Source: an uncultured Lysobacteraceae bacterium
Lineage (GTDB): Bacteria; Pseudomonadota; Gammaproteobacteria; Xanthomonadales; Rhodanobacteraceae
Length of the DNA: 8,608 nt
Assembly (NCBI GenBank): GCA_946480705.1
Contig: CAMLLF010000134.1
Location: 1-8,608 of the forward strand
Reading direction: 5' to 3'
Part shown: piece by piece, positions 2,139 to 7,903 of the stretch
How the letters are laid out: every line of letters begins with the position of its first letter
How positions within the stretch are numbered: position 1 is the first letter of the stretch
Notes under the pieces: generated by a model
Seen by the model: only the letters and a program-made list of their open reading frames with translations
Database searches by the model: none
Told to the model about the DNA's origin: nothing
Translations under genes and position numbers: made by a program

Positions 2139-2197
2139 GAAACGGATTCCGGCGGGCTGGGTTGTTTATTCTATCCGGCCCCGACGGCCCGGACCTC
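2139..2197. promoter_or_regulatory. Divergent intergenic region between sdaA and glutaredoxin-like gene, candidate -10 box
   Basis: These 59 bases must carry the start signals of both divergent genes. The A/T-rich patch at 2162-2174 stands out from the G/C-rich surroundings. On the minus strand it contains TAGAAT (2173-2168), five of six matches to a sigma-70 -10 box, about 30 bases before the sdaA ATG. On the plus strand the same patch gives TATTCT (2167-2172), four of six matches, 25 bases before the other ATG. I find no convincing -35 box for either direction. Confidence 0.35.
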
Positions 2198-2434
2198 ATG
2201 ACGATGCGACTTGTGCTTTTCCAACGCGACGACTGTCATTTGTGCGATCTCGCGCTGGACGTGCTGGCCGAGGCCCGCGTGCCGGATTTCTCCAGCGTCT
2301 TCGTCGATTTCGACAACACGCTCGAAGCGCTCTACGGCGAACGCGTGCCCGTGCTGCGCGACGACGACGGCCAGCGCGAACTGGACTGGCCGTTCGACGC
2401 GGCGACGGTGTCGGCCTGGCTCGCGCAGGCATGA
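2198..2434 (+). CDS. Glutaredoxin-like small thioredoxin-fold protein (Glrx-like family)
   Basis: A 78-residue cytoplasmic protein of the short glutaredoxin-like family (DUF836 type). It starts with a hydrophobic first strand (RLVLFQR, 4-10) followed by the redox motif CHLC (C13, C16), a helix, a second strand (SVFVDFD, about 33-39) and ERVPVL (48-53), where P51 fits the cis-proline that shapes the active site in thioredoxin folds. Length agrees with the family, about 80 residues. The frame extends upstream to a TTG at 2162, but ATG 2198 (or ATG 2204, two codons on) places the first strand at the expected distance; no strong ribosome binding site distinguishes them. The substrate is unknown; it may reduce disulfides or glutathione adducts. 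It stands alone on its strand, divergent from sdaA and 47 bases from the convergent end of the prfH remnant. Confidence 0.85.
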   Translation: MTMRLVLFQRDDCHLCDLALDVLAEARVPDFSSVFVDFDNTLEALYGERVPVLRDDDGQRELDWPFDAATVSAWLAQA

Positions 2435-2481: not shown

Positions 2482-3080
2482 TCAATCGGCGTCCGGAATG
2501 AACGCGGCGCCGCGGAACGTCCGCTGCGCATTGCCGCGATCGATGGCCCGATGGACCTGATGCCGGTCGGTGCGCTGTCCGGCGGCGACGGCCTTGGCCT
2601 GTTCGGCCAGCCGCTGCCGGATCAATGCGAGCGCGAGCCGCTTGTTCGCAAGTTGGCTGCGCTCGCTCTGCACCTTCACGCTGATGCCGCTCGCAAGATG
2701 GGCGGCGCGCACGGCGCTCGCGCCGGGGCCTGACGCGCGCACGGCTTCGAAGCGCACGGCGCCGTCGTCGCTGGTTGCCGGCAGCTCGAACGCGCGTCCG
2801 CCGAAGAACCCGTTCCTGCGCCGGTGCGTCGGCCGATAGGGGCTCGCGCAGATCCGCGGCAGCGTTCCGCTCCAGCGCCGCGCGAGTGCCGCGGCAGCGT
2901 CGCCGTCGAGCGCCAGCACGAGCGAGCGCCAGCCATCGGACTCCGCCCGGGCTCGGCTTCGAGCGTTTGCAGTCCCGCATCGCGTGCGAGTGCCTCGCGC
3001 TGCAGCAGCGCGAGCGCCTTGGCCACGGCCAGCGCGCACTCGGCCGGTGCCTGCGCGGCGGACAATTGCAGAAGTAGCAT
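2482..3080 (-). pseudogene. prfH: Peptide chain release factor H remnant, frameshifted and lacking the GGQ motif
   Basis: PrfH is a release-factor paralogue that acts on ribosomes with a damaged decoding centre and is usually encoded with the RNA ligase RtcB. Reading from ATG 3080 gives MLLLQLSAAQAPAEC and on to EAEPGRSP (residues 1-48), clearly the PrfH N-terminus. Family similarity then continues in another frame from about 2937 (DGWRSLVLALDGD, SPYRPTHRRRN, HLASGISVKVQSERSQ, NKRLA) to TGA 2484-2482. Inserting one base near 2937 would join both parts into about 199 residues, against about 205 in the family. Where the family has GPGGQHVNKTDSAV, this sequence reads GPGASAV (GPGAS at 2730-2716): seven residues including the catalytic GGQ are gone. 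A strong ribosome binding site, AAGGAAGG, sits four bases before the ATG. The gene follows the GTPase by 22 bases; no rtcB is in the window. It is most likely a young pseudogene; a sequencing error could explain the frameshift but hardly the GGQ loss. Confidence 0.88.
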
Positions 3081-3102: not shown

Positions 3103-4458
3103 TCAGCGCGCGGCGCCGCCGCGCAGCCGCGCGAGGATTTCCTCGCGCGCCTCGCGCAGGATCGAATCGCGGTCGAGCTGCGCGACGATGTCCTGCACGA
3201 CGCGCTTCGGACCCGAATCGCCCCAGGACTTGCCGGCGACGAGATAGCGTTCGGCCGCGCGGCCGACGACCTGCGTCGCGTACCAGGCCAGCGCGCCCTG
3301 CGCGCCGGCGGTCAGCAGCGTCGACACGCCGGCGCTCGCGACCTTCAGTGCGGAAGCGACGAGGTGCACGCCCCAGATCGCGCCCATGAGCGCGGCGAGC
3401 TGGGCGCAGATCGTCAGGATCAGCTGGCCCGCCTCGCGCCGCGTCAGCGGCAGGCCGTATACCTTTCCCAGATGCATCACGAGCGCCGCGTCGAGCGCGG
3501 CCGCAGCGAGCAGGTCGGCGACCGGCACGGGATTCAGCGCGACGGCGACGCCTTTGGCGAGGCAGTAGTAGCGGATCACCGTGTCGGCGACGCCGCGGCG
3601 GACCTCGGCGATGCGCTGCGCGACCTGGTCGGACAGGCGACCCGCGAACAGGCCGGCGTTCAGCGCCGACAGCGTCTTGCCTTCGCGCGCGCAGATCGCG
3701 AGCAGGCGTTCGCGCAGGTCGTCGACCTCGGGCGGGCGGGCTTCGCGCCGCTCGCGTTCGCGGCCCTGCGCGTCGACCTCGACCACGCGCTGCGGCGCCG
3801 GACTCGCCGCGCAGGCGAGCACGTTGGCCGGCGGCACGATGCCCGCGGTGTGTTCGCGCAGGCGGACGAGCAGGCGTTCGCGCTCGGAATCGTCGTAGCG
3901 ATCGGCCTTGTTGAGCACGAGCAGCAGCGGCCGCTCGGTTGCCGCGAGCGTCGCGAGCGCATCGCGCTCGACCTGGGTCATGTCGCCGTCGACGACGAAC
4001 AGCACGAGGTCGCTGATCTCGGCGACCTCGAACGCGAGCCGCTCGCGCGCCTCGCCGTCGAGTTCGTTGATGCCCGGCGTGTCGATCAGATGCAGGCCCG
4101 AGCCGCCGGCTTCGGTCCAGCGCTGCTGTTCCGCGCGCGTCGTCGTGCCGTGGAGCACGCCGGTCCCGAACGCGTCCAGCCCGAGCAGCGCGTTGCCGAG
4201 CGCGGACTTGCCGACCGAAACGCGCCCGAACACGGCGACATGCAGTTCGCTGCGCGCGAGCTTGTCGAGCAGCGACTGGATGCGCGCGAACTCGTTGCCG
4301 AGTTCGCGCCGCACCGATTCGGGCACGGTCGGGTCGTCGAGCAGTTGGCGCAGCGCGTCGCTGGCCTGGTCGGCGGGCGAGGTTGACGCCGCCGGCGGCG
4401 CGTCGCTGCGCCACCAGCGGGCGACGGAATCGAACCAGCCGCCGAAGGGGTTGTTCAT
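3103..4458 (-). CDS. Era-like GTPase with C-terminal DUF697-type membrane region
   Basis: A 451-residue GTP-binding protein, probably on the inner membrane. The G domain shows G1 GRVSVGKS (78-85), G2 threonines in HGTTTR (103-108), G3 DTPG (126-129) and G4 NKAD (183-186), with ACAASP (215-220) in the G5 position; all nucleotide-binding residues are present, so it should hydrolyse GTP. The C-terminal part holds hydrophobic segments (about 291-325 and 343-400) with NPVPVADLL (309-317), the Pro-rich signature of DUF697 proteins such as YcjF. The ends of the chain are amphipathic and charged. ATG 4458 is the first possible start after an in-frame stop at 4503-4501, and the N-terminus MNNPFGGWFD looks genuine, although no ribosome binding site is seen and a hairpin abuts the ATG. 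Its G4 region closely resembles that of the other GTPase in this window, so the two are paralogues. The biological role is unknown; membrane remodelling, transport or stress functions are only suggestions. Confidence 0.9.
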   Translation of the reverse strand: MNNPFGGWFDSVARWWRSDAPPAASTSPADQASDALRQLLDDPTVPESVRRELGNEFARIQSLLDKLARSELHVAVFGRVSVGKSALGNALLGLDAFGTGVLHGTTTRAEQQRWTEAGGSGLHLIDTPGINELDGEARERLAFEVAEISDLVLFVVDGDMTQVERDALATLAATERPLLLVLNKADRYDDSERERLLVRLREHTAGIVPPANVLACAASPAPQRVVEVDAQGRERERREARPPEVDDLRERLLAICAREGKTLSALNAGLFAGRLSDQVAQRIAEVRRGVADTVIRYYCLAKGVAVALNPVPVADLLAAAALDAALVMHLGKVYGLPLTRREAGQLILTICAQLAALMGAIWGVHLVASALKVASAGVSTLLTAGAQGALAWYATQVVGRAAERYLVAGKSWGDSGPKRVVQDIVAQLDRDSILREAREEILARLRGGAAR

Positions 4459-4475
4459 CGCCGCTGCGAGCGGCG
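4459..4475 (-). other. Perfect GC hairpin directly before the GTPase start codon
   Basis: The minus strand reads CGCCGCT CGC AGCGGCG and then immediately the ATG at 4458: a 7-bp perfect stem with a 3-base loop. It occupies the place where a ribosome binding site should be, and lies in the 37-base gap after the yceI stop. It could hinder initiation, stabilise a processed mRNA end or be chance in GC-rich DNA. There is no T-tract, so it is not a standard terminator. Confidence 0.45.
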
Positions 4476-4495
4476 GCGCGCGTGCGCCGCGGCGG

Positions 4496-5035
4496 TCACT
4501 TCAGGACGAGGTGCGAGGTCACCGCGACGTCCGCGGCGATCAGGCTCGTGTCGGCCCAGTCGCCCGTGCCGACGTCGAAGTCCAGGCGCTTGAGCGTGGT
4601 CTGCACGTCGAGCGTCGCCGCGTCGCCGGCCGGCTTGAAGTCGAGCGTGAGCTGCACGGGCTTGGACTTGTCGCGGATCGTCAGCGTGCCGTCGGCGACG
4701 AGCGCGCCGCCCGACTCCTTGACCGCCGTGCTGACGAAACGCGCCTTCGGAAACTTCGCGTAGTCGAAGAACGCCGTGCCCTTGAGCTCGCCGTCGTAGT
4801 CGGAATTGCCGGTCGTCGCGCTGGTCACGTCGATCTCGACGTCGAGCTTCGCGTTCGCGAGGTCGGCCTTGTCGAGCGCGATCTTCGCGGTGAAGCGCGC
4901 GAACTTGCCGCTGAACTTCTCGCCCTGGTAGGTGCCGGCAAAGCCGAGCGTGCTGGACGGATCGACGGTCCAGTCCTTGGCCTCCACACCGCCGGCAGCG
5001 GCGGCGAGCAGGGCGATCATTGCGAAGCGCTTCAT
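4496..5035 (-). CDS. YceI family periplasmic protein (second YceI of the cassette)
   Basis: YceI proteins are periplasmic lipocalin-like barrels that bind a polyisoprenoid or quinone-type lipid in a hydrophobic core. This 179-residue chain has a Sec signal peptide (KR at 2-3, hydrophobic 4-14, likely cut after VEA at 17-19), then the family start DWTVDPSSTLGFAGTYQG (21-38), the central ALDKADLANAKLDVEIDV strand region (53-70), the GELKGTAFFDYAKFPKARF block (82-100) and the terminal strand ending in SHLVLK. Length is typical. The frame runs further upstream, to 5341, but that part is antisense-like sequence inside the cytochrome gene; ATG 5035 gives the signal peptide and overlaps the cytochrome stop by four bases (ATGA), with GGAGA 10 bases ahead. 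Translation is therefore probably coupled to the cytochrome b561, with which it presumably works. Confidence 0.95.
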   Translation of the reverse strand: MKRFAMIALLAAAAGGVEAKDWTVDPSSTLGFAGTYQGEKFSGKFARFTAKIALDKADLANAKLDVEIDVTSATTGNSDYDGELKGTAFFDYAKFPKARFVSTAVKESGGALVADGTLTIRDKSKPVQLTLDFKPAGDAATLDVQTTLKRLDFDVGTGDWADTSLIAADVAVTSHLVLK

Positions 5036-5694
5036 GGGTTCGGATTCTCCTGGGACGTGACGGTGGCCGGCGGCGGTACGACCGGCGCCGCGGGCGGCAC
5101 CGGCGCCGCCGCGGCGGGTTCGGCCGAGATGGGGGGCGTGCCGCGCCGGCGCAACAGCCCCAGCATGCGAACGAGTGTGTCGTCGCGATCGACGAAGTGA
5201 TGCTTCAGCGCGCCGCCGACATGGGCCGCGAGCAGCAGGGCGAGCAGATAGAAGCCGTATTCGTGCACGGCGTGCGCGACGCCCTTGAGGGACGCATCGG
5301 CGCCGCCGGTCAGGCTCGGCAGGTTGAAAAGGCCGAACCACTGCAGCGGATAGCCCGAGGCCGAGTTGTACATCCAGCCCGACAGCGGCAGCACGAGCAT
5401 GAGCACGTAGAGGAACAGATGCGTCGCACGCGCGGCCAGCGCCTGCCAGTGCGGCATCGGCACTTCATCGGGCCGGCGGTCGGCCATGCGCCAGGCAACG
5501 CGCAGCACGAGCAGTGCGAGCACGGTCAGGCCTGTCGACTTGTGCAGCGCGTATATCTTTATCTTCTGCGGCGAATTCGGCAGGTCGGCCATGTACAGTC
5601 CGACGGCGCCCAGACAGATGATGAGCACGGCCATGAGCCAGTGCAGCGTGCGGGCGCCGGCGCCCCAGCGGTTTGCGTCACTCTTCCAGGCCAT
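5032..5694 (-). CDS. cybB: Cytochrome b561, diheme inner-membrane electron carrier
   Basis: Prokaryotic cytochrome b561 (CybB/YceJ type), a four-helix diheme protein that passes electrons between quinone and partners at the inner membrane. The 220 residues show hydrophobic helices at about 18-37, 48-70, 88-109 and 142-163. RTLHW places H18 in helix 1, LHKSTG gives H51, and H144 and H158 in the last helix keep the 14-residue spacing of the E. coli ligands, so both heme sites look intact. After LGLLRRRG the chain carries an extra Pro/Ala-rich tail (about 187-220) that the short E. coli protein lacks. ATG 5694 lies 17 bases inside the upstream yceI and has AAGGA eight bases ahead, which supports this start; the stop overlaps the next yceI start by four bases. 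It is the centre of a yceI-b561-yceI cassette. The symbol follows the E. coli paralogue and may not reflect orthology. Confidence 0.95.
   Translation of the reverse strand: MAWKSDANRWGAGARTLHWLMAVLIICLGAVGLYMADLPNSPQKIKIYALHKSTGLTVLALLVLRVAWRMADRRPDEVPMPHWQALAARATHLFLYVLMLVLPLSGWMYNSASGYPLQWFGLFNLPSLTGGADASLKGVAHAVHEYGFYLLALLLAAHVGGALKHHFVDRDDTLVRMLGLLRRRGTPPISAEPAAAAPVPPAAPVVPPPATVTSQENPNP
5081..5109 (-). repeat. Short direct repeat in cytochrome b561 tail
   Basis: ACCGGCGCCGC occurs at 5081-5091 and again at 5099-5109, an 18-base period in frame with the gene. On the minus strand it encodes AAPV twice (residues 196-199 and 202-205) in the Pro/Ala-rich tail. Such in-frame repeats usually arise by slippage and suggest a flexible linker whose length may vary among strains. 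Confidence 0.5.
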
Positions 5695-6325
5695 CGCTGT
5701 CGTCCTTCGTCGCGGGTGTCGTTGCGGGCGGGTCGGCGGCGTCGCGGTCGCGCACGAACGCGGCTTCGATGCGCAGTTCCACCGCGTCGCCGACCGCGCT
5801 CATTACTTTGTCGATGCCGTAGTCGCTGCGCCTGAGCGTCGCGGTCGCGGAAAACCCGGCCGTGCGCTTGAACGTGTACGGGTCGCTCGCGAGCTTGTTG
5901 AGCCGGAACTGCAGGTCGAGCGGATGCGTGCGGCCGTGCAGTTCGAGTTCGCCGCGGATCGTGCCGCGGCCGTCCTCGCCGCGCTCGACGCTGCGGCTGC
6001 GATAGCGCGCCTGCGGCCAGCGCTTCGCATCGAGAAAACGCCAGGACTTCACGGCCTCTTCCCATTTGGCGTCGCCGAGCAGCAGCGAGGCGACATCGAC
6101 GCTGACGTCGAGCTGCGCGCTGCTCCAGTCGTCCGCGTCGAACTGCAGCCGGCCGTCGGAAATCTTGAACAGGCCGAGGCTGCGGTTGAAGCCCTGGTGA
6201 TCGATGCTGAACATCACCTGCGTGTGCACGGGATCGGCGCGCCAGGCCTGCGGCTGCGCGAACGCCGGCGCGGCGGCGAGCGGAGGCAGGCAGAGGCACA
6301 GCAGCGGAAGCGGGCGCAGTCGCAT
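5678..6325 (-). CDS. YceI family periplasmic protein with acidic C-terminal tail (first YceI of the cassette)
   Basis: A second, clearly diverged YceI-family lipid or quinone binding barrel, 215 residues. The N-terminus MRLRPLPLLCLCLPPLAAA is a signal peptide, probably cut after AFA (21-23). The mature part opens with WRADPVHTQVMFSIDHQGF (28-46), the usual YceI strand pair with D31 and H34, followed by LFKISDGRLQFD (52-63), SSAQLDVSVDVASL (68-81) and GELELHGRTHPL (125-136). After the barrel, which ends near residue 192, there is a polar tail (about 193-215) rich in D, P, A and T that the other YceI lacks. Cysteines C10 and C12 lie inside the signal and there is no clear lipobox, so secretion to the periplasm is more likely than lipidation. 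ATG 6325 follows a 90-base gap after the GTPase gene; the end overlaps the cytochrome b561 start by 17 bases. Confidence 0.93.
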   Translation of the reverse strand: MRLRPLPLLCLCLPPLAAAPAFAQPQAWRADPVHTQVMFSIDHQGFNRSLGLFKISDGRLQFDADDWSSAQLDVSVDVASLLLGDAKWEEAVKSWRFLDAKRWPQARYRSRSVERGEDGRGTIRGELELHGRTHPLDLQFRLNKLASDPYTFKRTAGFSATATLRRSDYGIDKVMSAVGDAVELRIEAAFVRDRDAADPPATTPATKDDSDGLEE

Positions 6326-6381
6326 GGCGGCTAGCTTCGCAGATTGTCACGGCGGGCAGAAGCGCGCGCGGCGGAAATGCA

Positions 6382-6400
6382 GTTGCGCCCGCGGCGCAAC
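6382..6400 (-). terminator. Stem-loop 16 bases after the upstream GTPase stop, possible terminator or operator
   Basis: GTTGCGCC (6382-6389) and GGCGCAAC (6393-6400) form a perfect 8-bp stem with a 3-base loop in the 90-base gap between the GTPase gene and the first yceI gene. On the minus strand it follows the GTPase stop by 15 bases and is trailed by TGCATTTCC, only a weak T-run. It could be an inefficient terminator, an mRNA processing site, or a dyad operator for the yceI-b561-yceI genes. Confidence 0.4.
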
Positions 6401-6415
6401 AATCCGGCGGATCTT

Positions 6416-7903
6416 TCAGCGCGCGTCGCGGTCGCCGGCCAGCCCGTCCAGCGCGAGTTTCGCGACGTGCGCGACGCGGCTGCGCGCCTGTTCCGACAGC
6501 AGTCGCTGCAAGGTCTGCTGCGCCTGCTCCTGATCGAAGCGATGCTGTTCGAGCAGCGTGCGGCCGACCGCATGCCCGAGGCTGTCGAAGATCAGGCCAT
6601 AGGCGACCGCGTGCACGACGCCGCCGCTCAGCGTGCCGAGTCCCGGAAACGCCTTGAGCGCGTTGCCGGCGATCGCGAGCACGATCGAACTCGTCGTGCG
6701 CAGATTCAGCGCCGCGTCGCGCAGGAACGCGTCGAGATCGATCTGCTTGACCGGAATCTCATGCAGCGCGGCGAGTTCGCGCACGAGCGACGTCGCGAGC
6801 GCGCCCTGGATCAGCAGATCGGTGCCCGGCGCGACGGCCGCGAGCGCGCCGATGATCGCGCGCCGCGTATGCCGGTCGACGATGGCCTGCGATTCGCGTT
6901 CCCGCATCGCGCGTTCGGCCGTGCCGAGCTGCTCGCCGAGCCTGCCGATCACGGCGCCGGCGCGTGCCTGCTCGAGCGCGCCGGCATCGGCGTCGAGGCA
7001 GTCCCGCAGCGCCTCGCGCAGCGGATCGAGCTGCGGCGGCGCGTCGCGCACGACGCGTTCCTCGCGGCCGTCGGCGAGGCGGCGCACGAACGACTCGCGG
7101 CCGCCGGCCTGCACCGCGACGACGCGATCGACGATACCGGCATAGCGTTCGCGCAGCGTCGCGAGCAACTGCGTGCGCTGCGTGTCGTCGTACTGGTCGA
7201 TCTTGTTCAGCGCGAGCAGCAGCGGCTTGCCGTAGCCGCGCAGCCAGCGCAGTTCCTGGTCCTGCGCGCGCGTGACGTCGCCGCCGGCGACATAGACGAC
7301 GGCATGCGCGCGCAGCGCTTCGTCGCGCGCCAGCGCCTCGCGTTCGCGCGCCTGGACTTCCTGCATGCCGGGCACGTCGGCGAGCACGATGTCGAGAGCG
7401 TCGACGCGGCCGCGGTGATGGCTCACGAGCGTCGTCGTGCCGCCGAGCACGTCGACGTCGACCTGGGCCTCGGGCGCGAGCGCGCGGACGAGACTCGACT
7501 TGCCTGCGCTGATTTCGCCGAACACCGCGACGTAGCGCTCGCCGGCCGCGGCGCGGCGGTCGAGCTCCTGCAGTTCGGCTTCGAAGCGCGCGGTTTCCGC
7601 CTGGCGCGACTGCAGCTGGCGGATCCTCTGTTCGACCGTGTCGCGGCTCGGTGCTGCGACCGGACGTGCGGCGCGCGGACGCGGATGCAGCAGCCGCCAG
7701 ACCGCCCAGGTGCTGAGTCCCGCGAACGCGGCGAGCGCGCCGATCAGCGCATAGCGCAGCAGCGCCGGCAGCCCGGCCAGTTCGCGCCAGAGTTCGAGCG
7801 CGCTGCGCGTCGCGCCGAGCAGCAGCCAGAGCAGGGCGATCGCGGCGAGCGCGAGGGCCAGGGCGAGCAGGGCGCGCAGCTGGCGCGTGTCCGGGGCGTT
7901 CAT
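6416..7903 (-). CDS. Membrane-anchored GTPase with N-terminal two-helix anchor and DUF697-like C-terminus
   Basis: A 495-residue inner-membrane GTPase. Two transmembrane helices at about 10-30 and 47-72 form a hairpin anchor, followed by a charged, probably coiled-coil stretch (88-120: EQRIRQLQSRQAETARFEAE). The G domain then shows G1 GEISAGKS (129-136), G2 GGTTT (154-158), G3 DVPG (176-179, valine replacing the usual threonine) and G4 NKID (233-236). The C-terminal part contains APGTDLLIQGALATSLVREL (358-377) and hydrophobic segments (about 405-440), the DUF697 signature region, and ends in an amphipathic Q/A/L-rich helix. ATG 7903 is chosen because upstream codons in the same frame are Arg-rich non-protein-like sequence that would run into the divergent gene. 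The G4 stretch KPLLLALNKIDQYDD matches RPLLLVLNKADRYDD of the second GTPase, so they are diverged paralogues. It is first in the minus-strand gene run. Function unknown beyond GTP hydrolysis at the membrane. Confidence 0.9.
   Translation of the reverse strand: MNAPDTRQLRALLALALALAAIALLWLLLGATRSALELWRELAGLPALLRYALIGALAAFAGLSTWAVWRLLHPRPRAARPVAAPSRDTVEQRIRQLQSRQAETARFEAELQELDRRAAAGERYVAVFGEISAGKSSLVRALAPEAQVDVDVLGGTTTLVSHHRGRVDALDIVLADVPGMQEVQAREREALARDEALRAHAVVYVAGGDVTRAQDQELRWLRGYGKPLLLALNKIDQYDDTQRTQLLATLRERYAGIVDRVVAVQAGGRESFVRRLADGREERVVRDAPPQLDPLREALRDCLDADAGALEQARAGAVIGRLGEQLGTAERAMRERESQAIVDRHTRRAIIGALAAVAPGTDLLIQGALATSLVRELAALHEIPVKQIDLDAFLRDAALNLRTTSSIVLAIAGNALKAFPGLGTLSGGVVHAVAYGLIFDSLGHAVGRTLLEQHRFDQEQAQQTLQRLLSEQARSRVAHVAKLALDGLAGDRDAR

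Follow-up and report, generated by a model that had tools for sequence, protein, structure and literature searches.

A probable prfH pseudogene with a frameshift and a missing GGQ loop in a Tahibacter-like lineage of the Rhodanobacteraceae

In the 8,608-nucleotide stretch of DNA analysed here (the window), the gene for peptide chain release factor H, prfH, is very probably (about 90%) a recently inactivated pseudogene in a Tahibacter-like member of the Rhodanobacteraceae. Because the reading frame is broken upstream in addition to the loss of the catalytic loop, the gene resembles an ordinary pseudogene more than a novel type of release factor. The sequence-only reading had described an otherwise well kept gene from which the GGQ loop was excised, as either an inactivating step or the source of a ribosome-binding, non-hydrolysing protein. 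Inactivation is supported by our results, but the N- and C-terminal parts of the gene lie in different frames, a frameshift overlooked in that reading. Judged from the sequence, the loop loss would be one lesion of several, neither the only one nor perhaps the first, as the upstream frameshift separates the start from the catalytic domain.

Disrupted frames and the missing loop

The match of the window to the PrfH profile TIGR03072 is split, with profile positions 2–48 in one frame and 46–200 in another; chance similarity was ruled out by this profile match (E 2.5e-48). Similarly, tblastn with the intact homologue P0008 as query placed residues 1–73 at 3080–2850 and residues 47–206 at 2943–2485. 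The C-terminal part scored 164.3 bits, below the curated cut-off of 166.65, and the N-terminal part scored 38.3 bits in the other frame; no single open frame of the window passes this cut-off. The frame of ATG 3080 departs from the PrfH frame at approximately codon 47, and translation from this start therefore passes the GGQ site outside the PrfH frame. As the start and the C-terminal part are in different frames, the catalytic site would be unreachable from the native start even with the loop present. The genomes G369, G596, G597 and G601 carry intact orthologues at this locus, and the disruption is evident by comparison with them. The features are collected in Table 1.

Table 1. Positions of prfH features and neighbouring genes in the window
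Feature	Position	Strand	Evidence or remark
prfH pseudogene (peptide chain release factor H), whole remnant	2482..3080	minus	TIGR03072 in two frames; tblastn with intact P0008
Frame of the native ATG: some 46 PrfH-like residues followed by loss of the PrfH frame; stop at 2676	2676..3080	minus	AGGAAGG precedes ATG 3080
Net one-base frameshift, codons ~46–49	2938..2951	minus	Alignment with four intact relatives; TIGR03072; same break in P0241
C-terminal PrfH part, in a frame differing from that of the start codon, without GGQ loop	2482..2943	minus	TIGR03072, tblastn
Missing catalytic loop (GPG-AS)	2716..2730; 21 bases gone between ~2722 and 2721	minus	Alignment with four relatives; P0241 implies 20
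Trp (at least 97% conserved) to Arg	2854..2856	minus	Common to P0001; also in intact P0018
Conserved Lys to Arg	2815–2817	minus	Common to P0001
Conserved Trp to Gly	2809–2811	minus	Common to P0001; also in P0100
gtp1, DUF697/MMR_HSR1 GTPase, intact conserved neighbour directly upstream of prfH	3103..4458	minus	
Glutaredoxin-like (DUF836) gene, intact, downstream of prfH, convergent	2162..2434	plus	

Direct reading of the minus strand from 2730 to 2716 gives GGC CCC GGC GCG AGC (GPGAS), which confirms both the place and the lost GGQ loop as first described, and the flanks GPG and SAV are retained in the C-terminal part, as had also been stated. In the DNA alignment with the four intact relatives, 21 bases are absent, in frame with the C-terminal part; of GGQ they take away the second G and the Q, and with them the five codons that follow. 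The claim of exactly 21 bases holds against these relatives, but the protein record P0241 implies 20 at the same spot by frame arithmetic. A total of 564 homologues were found, and among the 120 listed and checked, GGQ is present in 119. The remaining one, P0061 (listed as Pseudomonas sp. PDM18), is a full-length PrfH with GPSGQ in place of GPGGQ, an altered GGQ motif in an open gene. The SXY anticodon motif, a feature named in PMC1586002, is present in the C-terminal part of the window gene (CASPYRP). The window gene thus shares with PrfH/RFH (TIGR03072) the sequence family in both of its parts, the SPY motif and the loop flanks, but differs in the absence of GGQ, the two frames, the changed conserved residues and the C-terminal score under the cut-off. 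Solved structures related by sequence to the intact homologue P0008 include 7sa4 and 9mor, both named release factor H.

Closest records, conserved residues and selection

The closest GGQ-bearing relative, P0001 (152 residues, 97% identical to the window, GGQHVNNAASAV), is listed solely from an internal start corresponding to GTG 2919 of the window, unlike most intact prfH copies, which start at residue 1; from this listed start in the protein record we infer an upstream break there too. P0241 (199 residues), which was found later in a search with the N-terminal part, has the same residues as the window in the N-terminal part, the out-of-frame middle and the C-terminal part (the last compared by eye), and it shares the frame break and the absence of GGQ. 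At the loop site P0241 comes back into frame, hence the implied gap of 20 rather than 21 bases. In sum, the frameshift is found in two records and implied in a third, and the loop is gone from two and kept in one. As two records show a gap, the loop loss is probably genuine; whether 20 or 21 bases are lost in the living strain is uncertain, and the window and P0241 may come from one sample. If the frameshift is indeed shared with the strain of P0001, it would be older than the loop loss, which would have occurred later, in the lineage of the window. On its sequence, the window prfH is predicted to yield no working release factor.

Outside the gap, 4 of 144 prfH residues differ between the window and P0001. 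The gtp1 protein of the window recurs without a single change across 451 residues on two contigs, of which one is possibly the window's own and the longer, which matches the contig of P0001 in length (174200 bases), is, we infer, that contig; the contrast between 4/144 and 0/451 residue differences (Fisher p 0.003) is consistent with a pseudogene. A scan of genome contigs with the C-terminal part found two loci only, in a Pseudomonas and a Patescibacteria record.

Changes at conserved residues also point to inactivation. Among 53 alignment columns with a conservation of at least 97% across 119 homologues, the window departs at nine (three substitutions and six deleted positions) and P0001 at five (four substitutions and one truncated position), while among the 119 homologues themselves there was no departure in 89, one in 19, two in 10 and three in 1. 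All three substitutions of the window are common to P0001. Two of them are also met, one at a time, in homologues of full length (P0018 has the Trp to Arg change and P0100 the Trp to Gly change), which speaks somewhat against inactivation, and for this reason the substitutions suggest decay but do not decide the matter.

The pairwise NG86 dN/dS values do not indicate a long relaxation and in this respect count against the pseudogene. For the C-terminal part of the window against the four intact copies they were 0.16, 0.40, 0.45 and 0.21, inside or close to the span of 0.14–0.36 given by the six pairings among intact copies. The remainder of the gene, for which the sequence-only reading had raised the question of constraint, appears constrained in these pairwise comparisons. 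Because dN/dS is not raised, the decay would have to be recent: most of the divergence of the window prfH probably arose under constraint.

Alternative readings of the lesions

The GGQ gap could instead be an assembly or sequencing artefact, caused by a strain mixture or a chimeric join, in which case the gene would be broken by the frameshift only, or not at all. We consider this rather unlikely, though worth weighing. The window and P0241 otherwise encode identical residues, yet at this very junction they are one base apart (21 against 20). All four residue differences between the window and P0001 lie C-terminal of the junction, the pattern expected if two strains had been joined; by chance, all four would fall on this side with a probability of about 0.09 (79/144 to the fourth power). 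On the other hand, a gap of about 20 bases is present in both records, though possibly from one sample, and the frameshift occurs in both and is implied in P0001. Moreover, both lesions fall within prfH, which makes up about 7% of the window (by chance approximately 0.005), and the other eight window proteins that were tested are each in one frame and match their relatives nearly full-length in a single stretch. This intactness of the neighbours also argues for a pseudogene, as do the match of prfH in two frames, the 21-base gap and one-base shift relative to the four intact relatives, the same out-of-frame middle in P0241 and the internal start of P0001 despite its GGQ.

A functional non-hydrolase, in the form of an internally initiated C-terminal piece predicted to bind ribosomes, is highly improbable. 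The C-terminal frame is open for 185 codons, the SPY motif and loop flanks are kept, and dN/dS is not raised. However, no clear Shine-Dalgarno sequence was seen in the 20 bases before the internal GTG 3039 (just an AGG ten bases ahead), and none in the 20 bases before GTG 2919. In addition, residues 1–46 lie outside this frame, substitutions affect two conserved Trp and one Lys, and the frame structure of P0241 differs at the same place. The non-hydrolysing ribosome binder proposed from the sequence thus finds little support, and we reject it for want of a clear start and in view of the other lesions. We likewise discard, as scarcely credible, a programmed frameshift at about codon 47 that would join the two frames and leave the loop as the sole lesion: the frames are one net base apart, and programmed frameshifting is used in many bacteria by a related gene, prfB (PMC12421855), but the four intact relatives cross this region in a single frame and inspection by eye showed no correctly phased slippery heptamer.

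Locus setting and the relation of prfH to rtcB2

The gene order shared at this locus is GTPase 2, YceI, cytochrome b561, YceI, GTPase 1, prfH, glutaredoxin and serine dehydratase. It is kept in G369, G596, G597 and G601, each with prfH in one open frame; the outer genes of this order are cut off in G597, where the contig is 7391 bases long. In the window, two related GTPase genes flank the YceI–cytochrome b561–YceI set (3103–7903), and a DUF697 region above the Pfam cut-off is found solely in the first of them. Intact prfH stands right behind the DUF697 GTPase gene at L069 (G369), L071 (G596), L072 (G601) and L073 (G597), and in G596 the GTPase stop overlaps the prfH start (TGATG). In G598 (L075:7740-7892), a prfH remnant of just 44 PrfH-like codons, with a stop after codon 50, is further support for inactivation in the window; it is cut at almost the same codon as the frameshift of the window, and the rest of the gene was not found in the 14 kb read at this locus. 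No prfH over the cut-off was found in G600, whose contig ends 94 bases past the GTPase match and contains no prfH start in that interval.

Within the family, prfH above the TIGR03072 cut-off occurs in 6 of 233 genomes. Two of the six (G595 and G599) have rtcB directly upstream, with the weak, split PF01139 match characteristic of rtcB2. In G369, G596, G597 and G601, draft genomes of unstated completeness, no RtcB2-type match was found, stronger PF01139 matches lying elsewhere only, and their intact copies pass the PrfH cut-off with no upstream rtcB. Similarly, no rtcB-like gene is directly upstream of the window prfH, where the DUF697 GTPase gene stands. In a phylum sample, 13 of 398 genomes have prfH over the cut-off, and an rtcB match adjoins it in 10 of these, the exceptions being G369, G743 and G877. 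The G743 copy (L085) is a divergent full-length PrfH, and no RtcB2-type match was found in that genome. The G877 copy (L088:1124-1624) is devoid of the first 44 profile positions and has an intact GGQ, again with no RtcB2-type match in the genome; the open frames beside it resemble an IS1 transposase. A contrast of broken and intact copies by rtcB2 status was set aside as evidence, since the window itself had been the point of departure.

A tree was built from 30 chosen rows, with further homologues added, the phylum genomes, P0115 and P0021 left out, and the window represented by its C-terminal part only. In this tree, 19 rows form one clade against the 11 others (support 99/95), the latter including the rtcB-linked G595 and G599. 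The clade consists of the window, P0001, the four genomes and 13 further homologues; where the locus DNA was read (the window and the four genomes), its copies follow a DUF697 GTPase gene with no adjacent rtcB2. Given this clade, the lack of an RtcB2-type match in the four drafts and the NG86 values of 0.14–0.36 among intact copies, we tentatively suggest, as a possibility against which the odds still lie, that prfH of the Tahibacter clade was uncoupled from rtcB2, settled once behind the DUF697 GTPase gene and was selected as a stand-alone rescue factor, the window and G598 representing loss under way.

Pseudogenes of prfH have been in print since 2006, for example in Escherichia coli K-12 (PMC1586002). 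The portions of that paper on which we draw count 23 genomes with prfH, whether intact or disrupted, among 311, discuss many pseudogenes and place a specific rtcB-like gene upstream of prfH in every observed case. The window gene resembles these pseudogenes, in which deletions, frameshifts or nonsense changes disrupt prfH, but it differs in having a GTPase gene upstream, and no loss of the loop itself was met among the lesions in those portions. In the excerpts of PMC9223846 used here, the RtcB2-PrfH module protects against colicin E3, E. coli BW25113 has a truncated RtcB2-PrfH operon, and PrfH is a rescue factor of damaged ribosomes; what we describe belongs to the same factor but differs in that the window prfH has no adjacent rtcB2 and the four relatives with intact prfH have no RtcB2-type match. 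A literature search, judged by titles and the beginnings of abstracts, found no report of prfH without rtcB or with a lost loop, which is weak evidence of absence.

By itself, the window prfH is of little significance, as one more prfH pseudogene. Its locus setting is slightly more important, since PMC1586002 and PMC6514570 describe a coupling between PrfH and RtcB. A clade with intact PrfH and no RtcB2, some members of which are losing the gene, would offer a natural way to ask whether PrfH is of use independently of the ligase.
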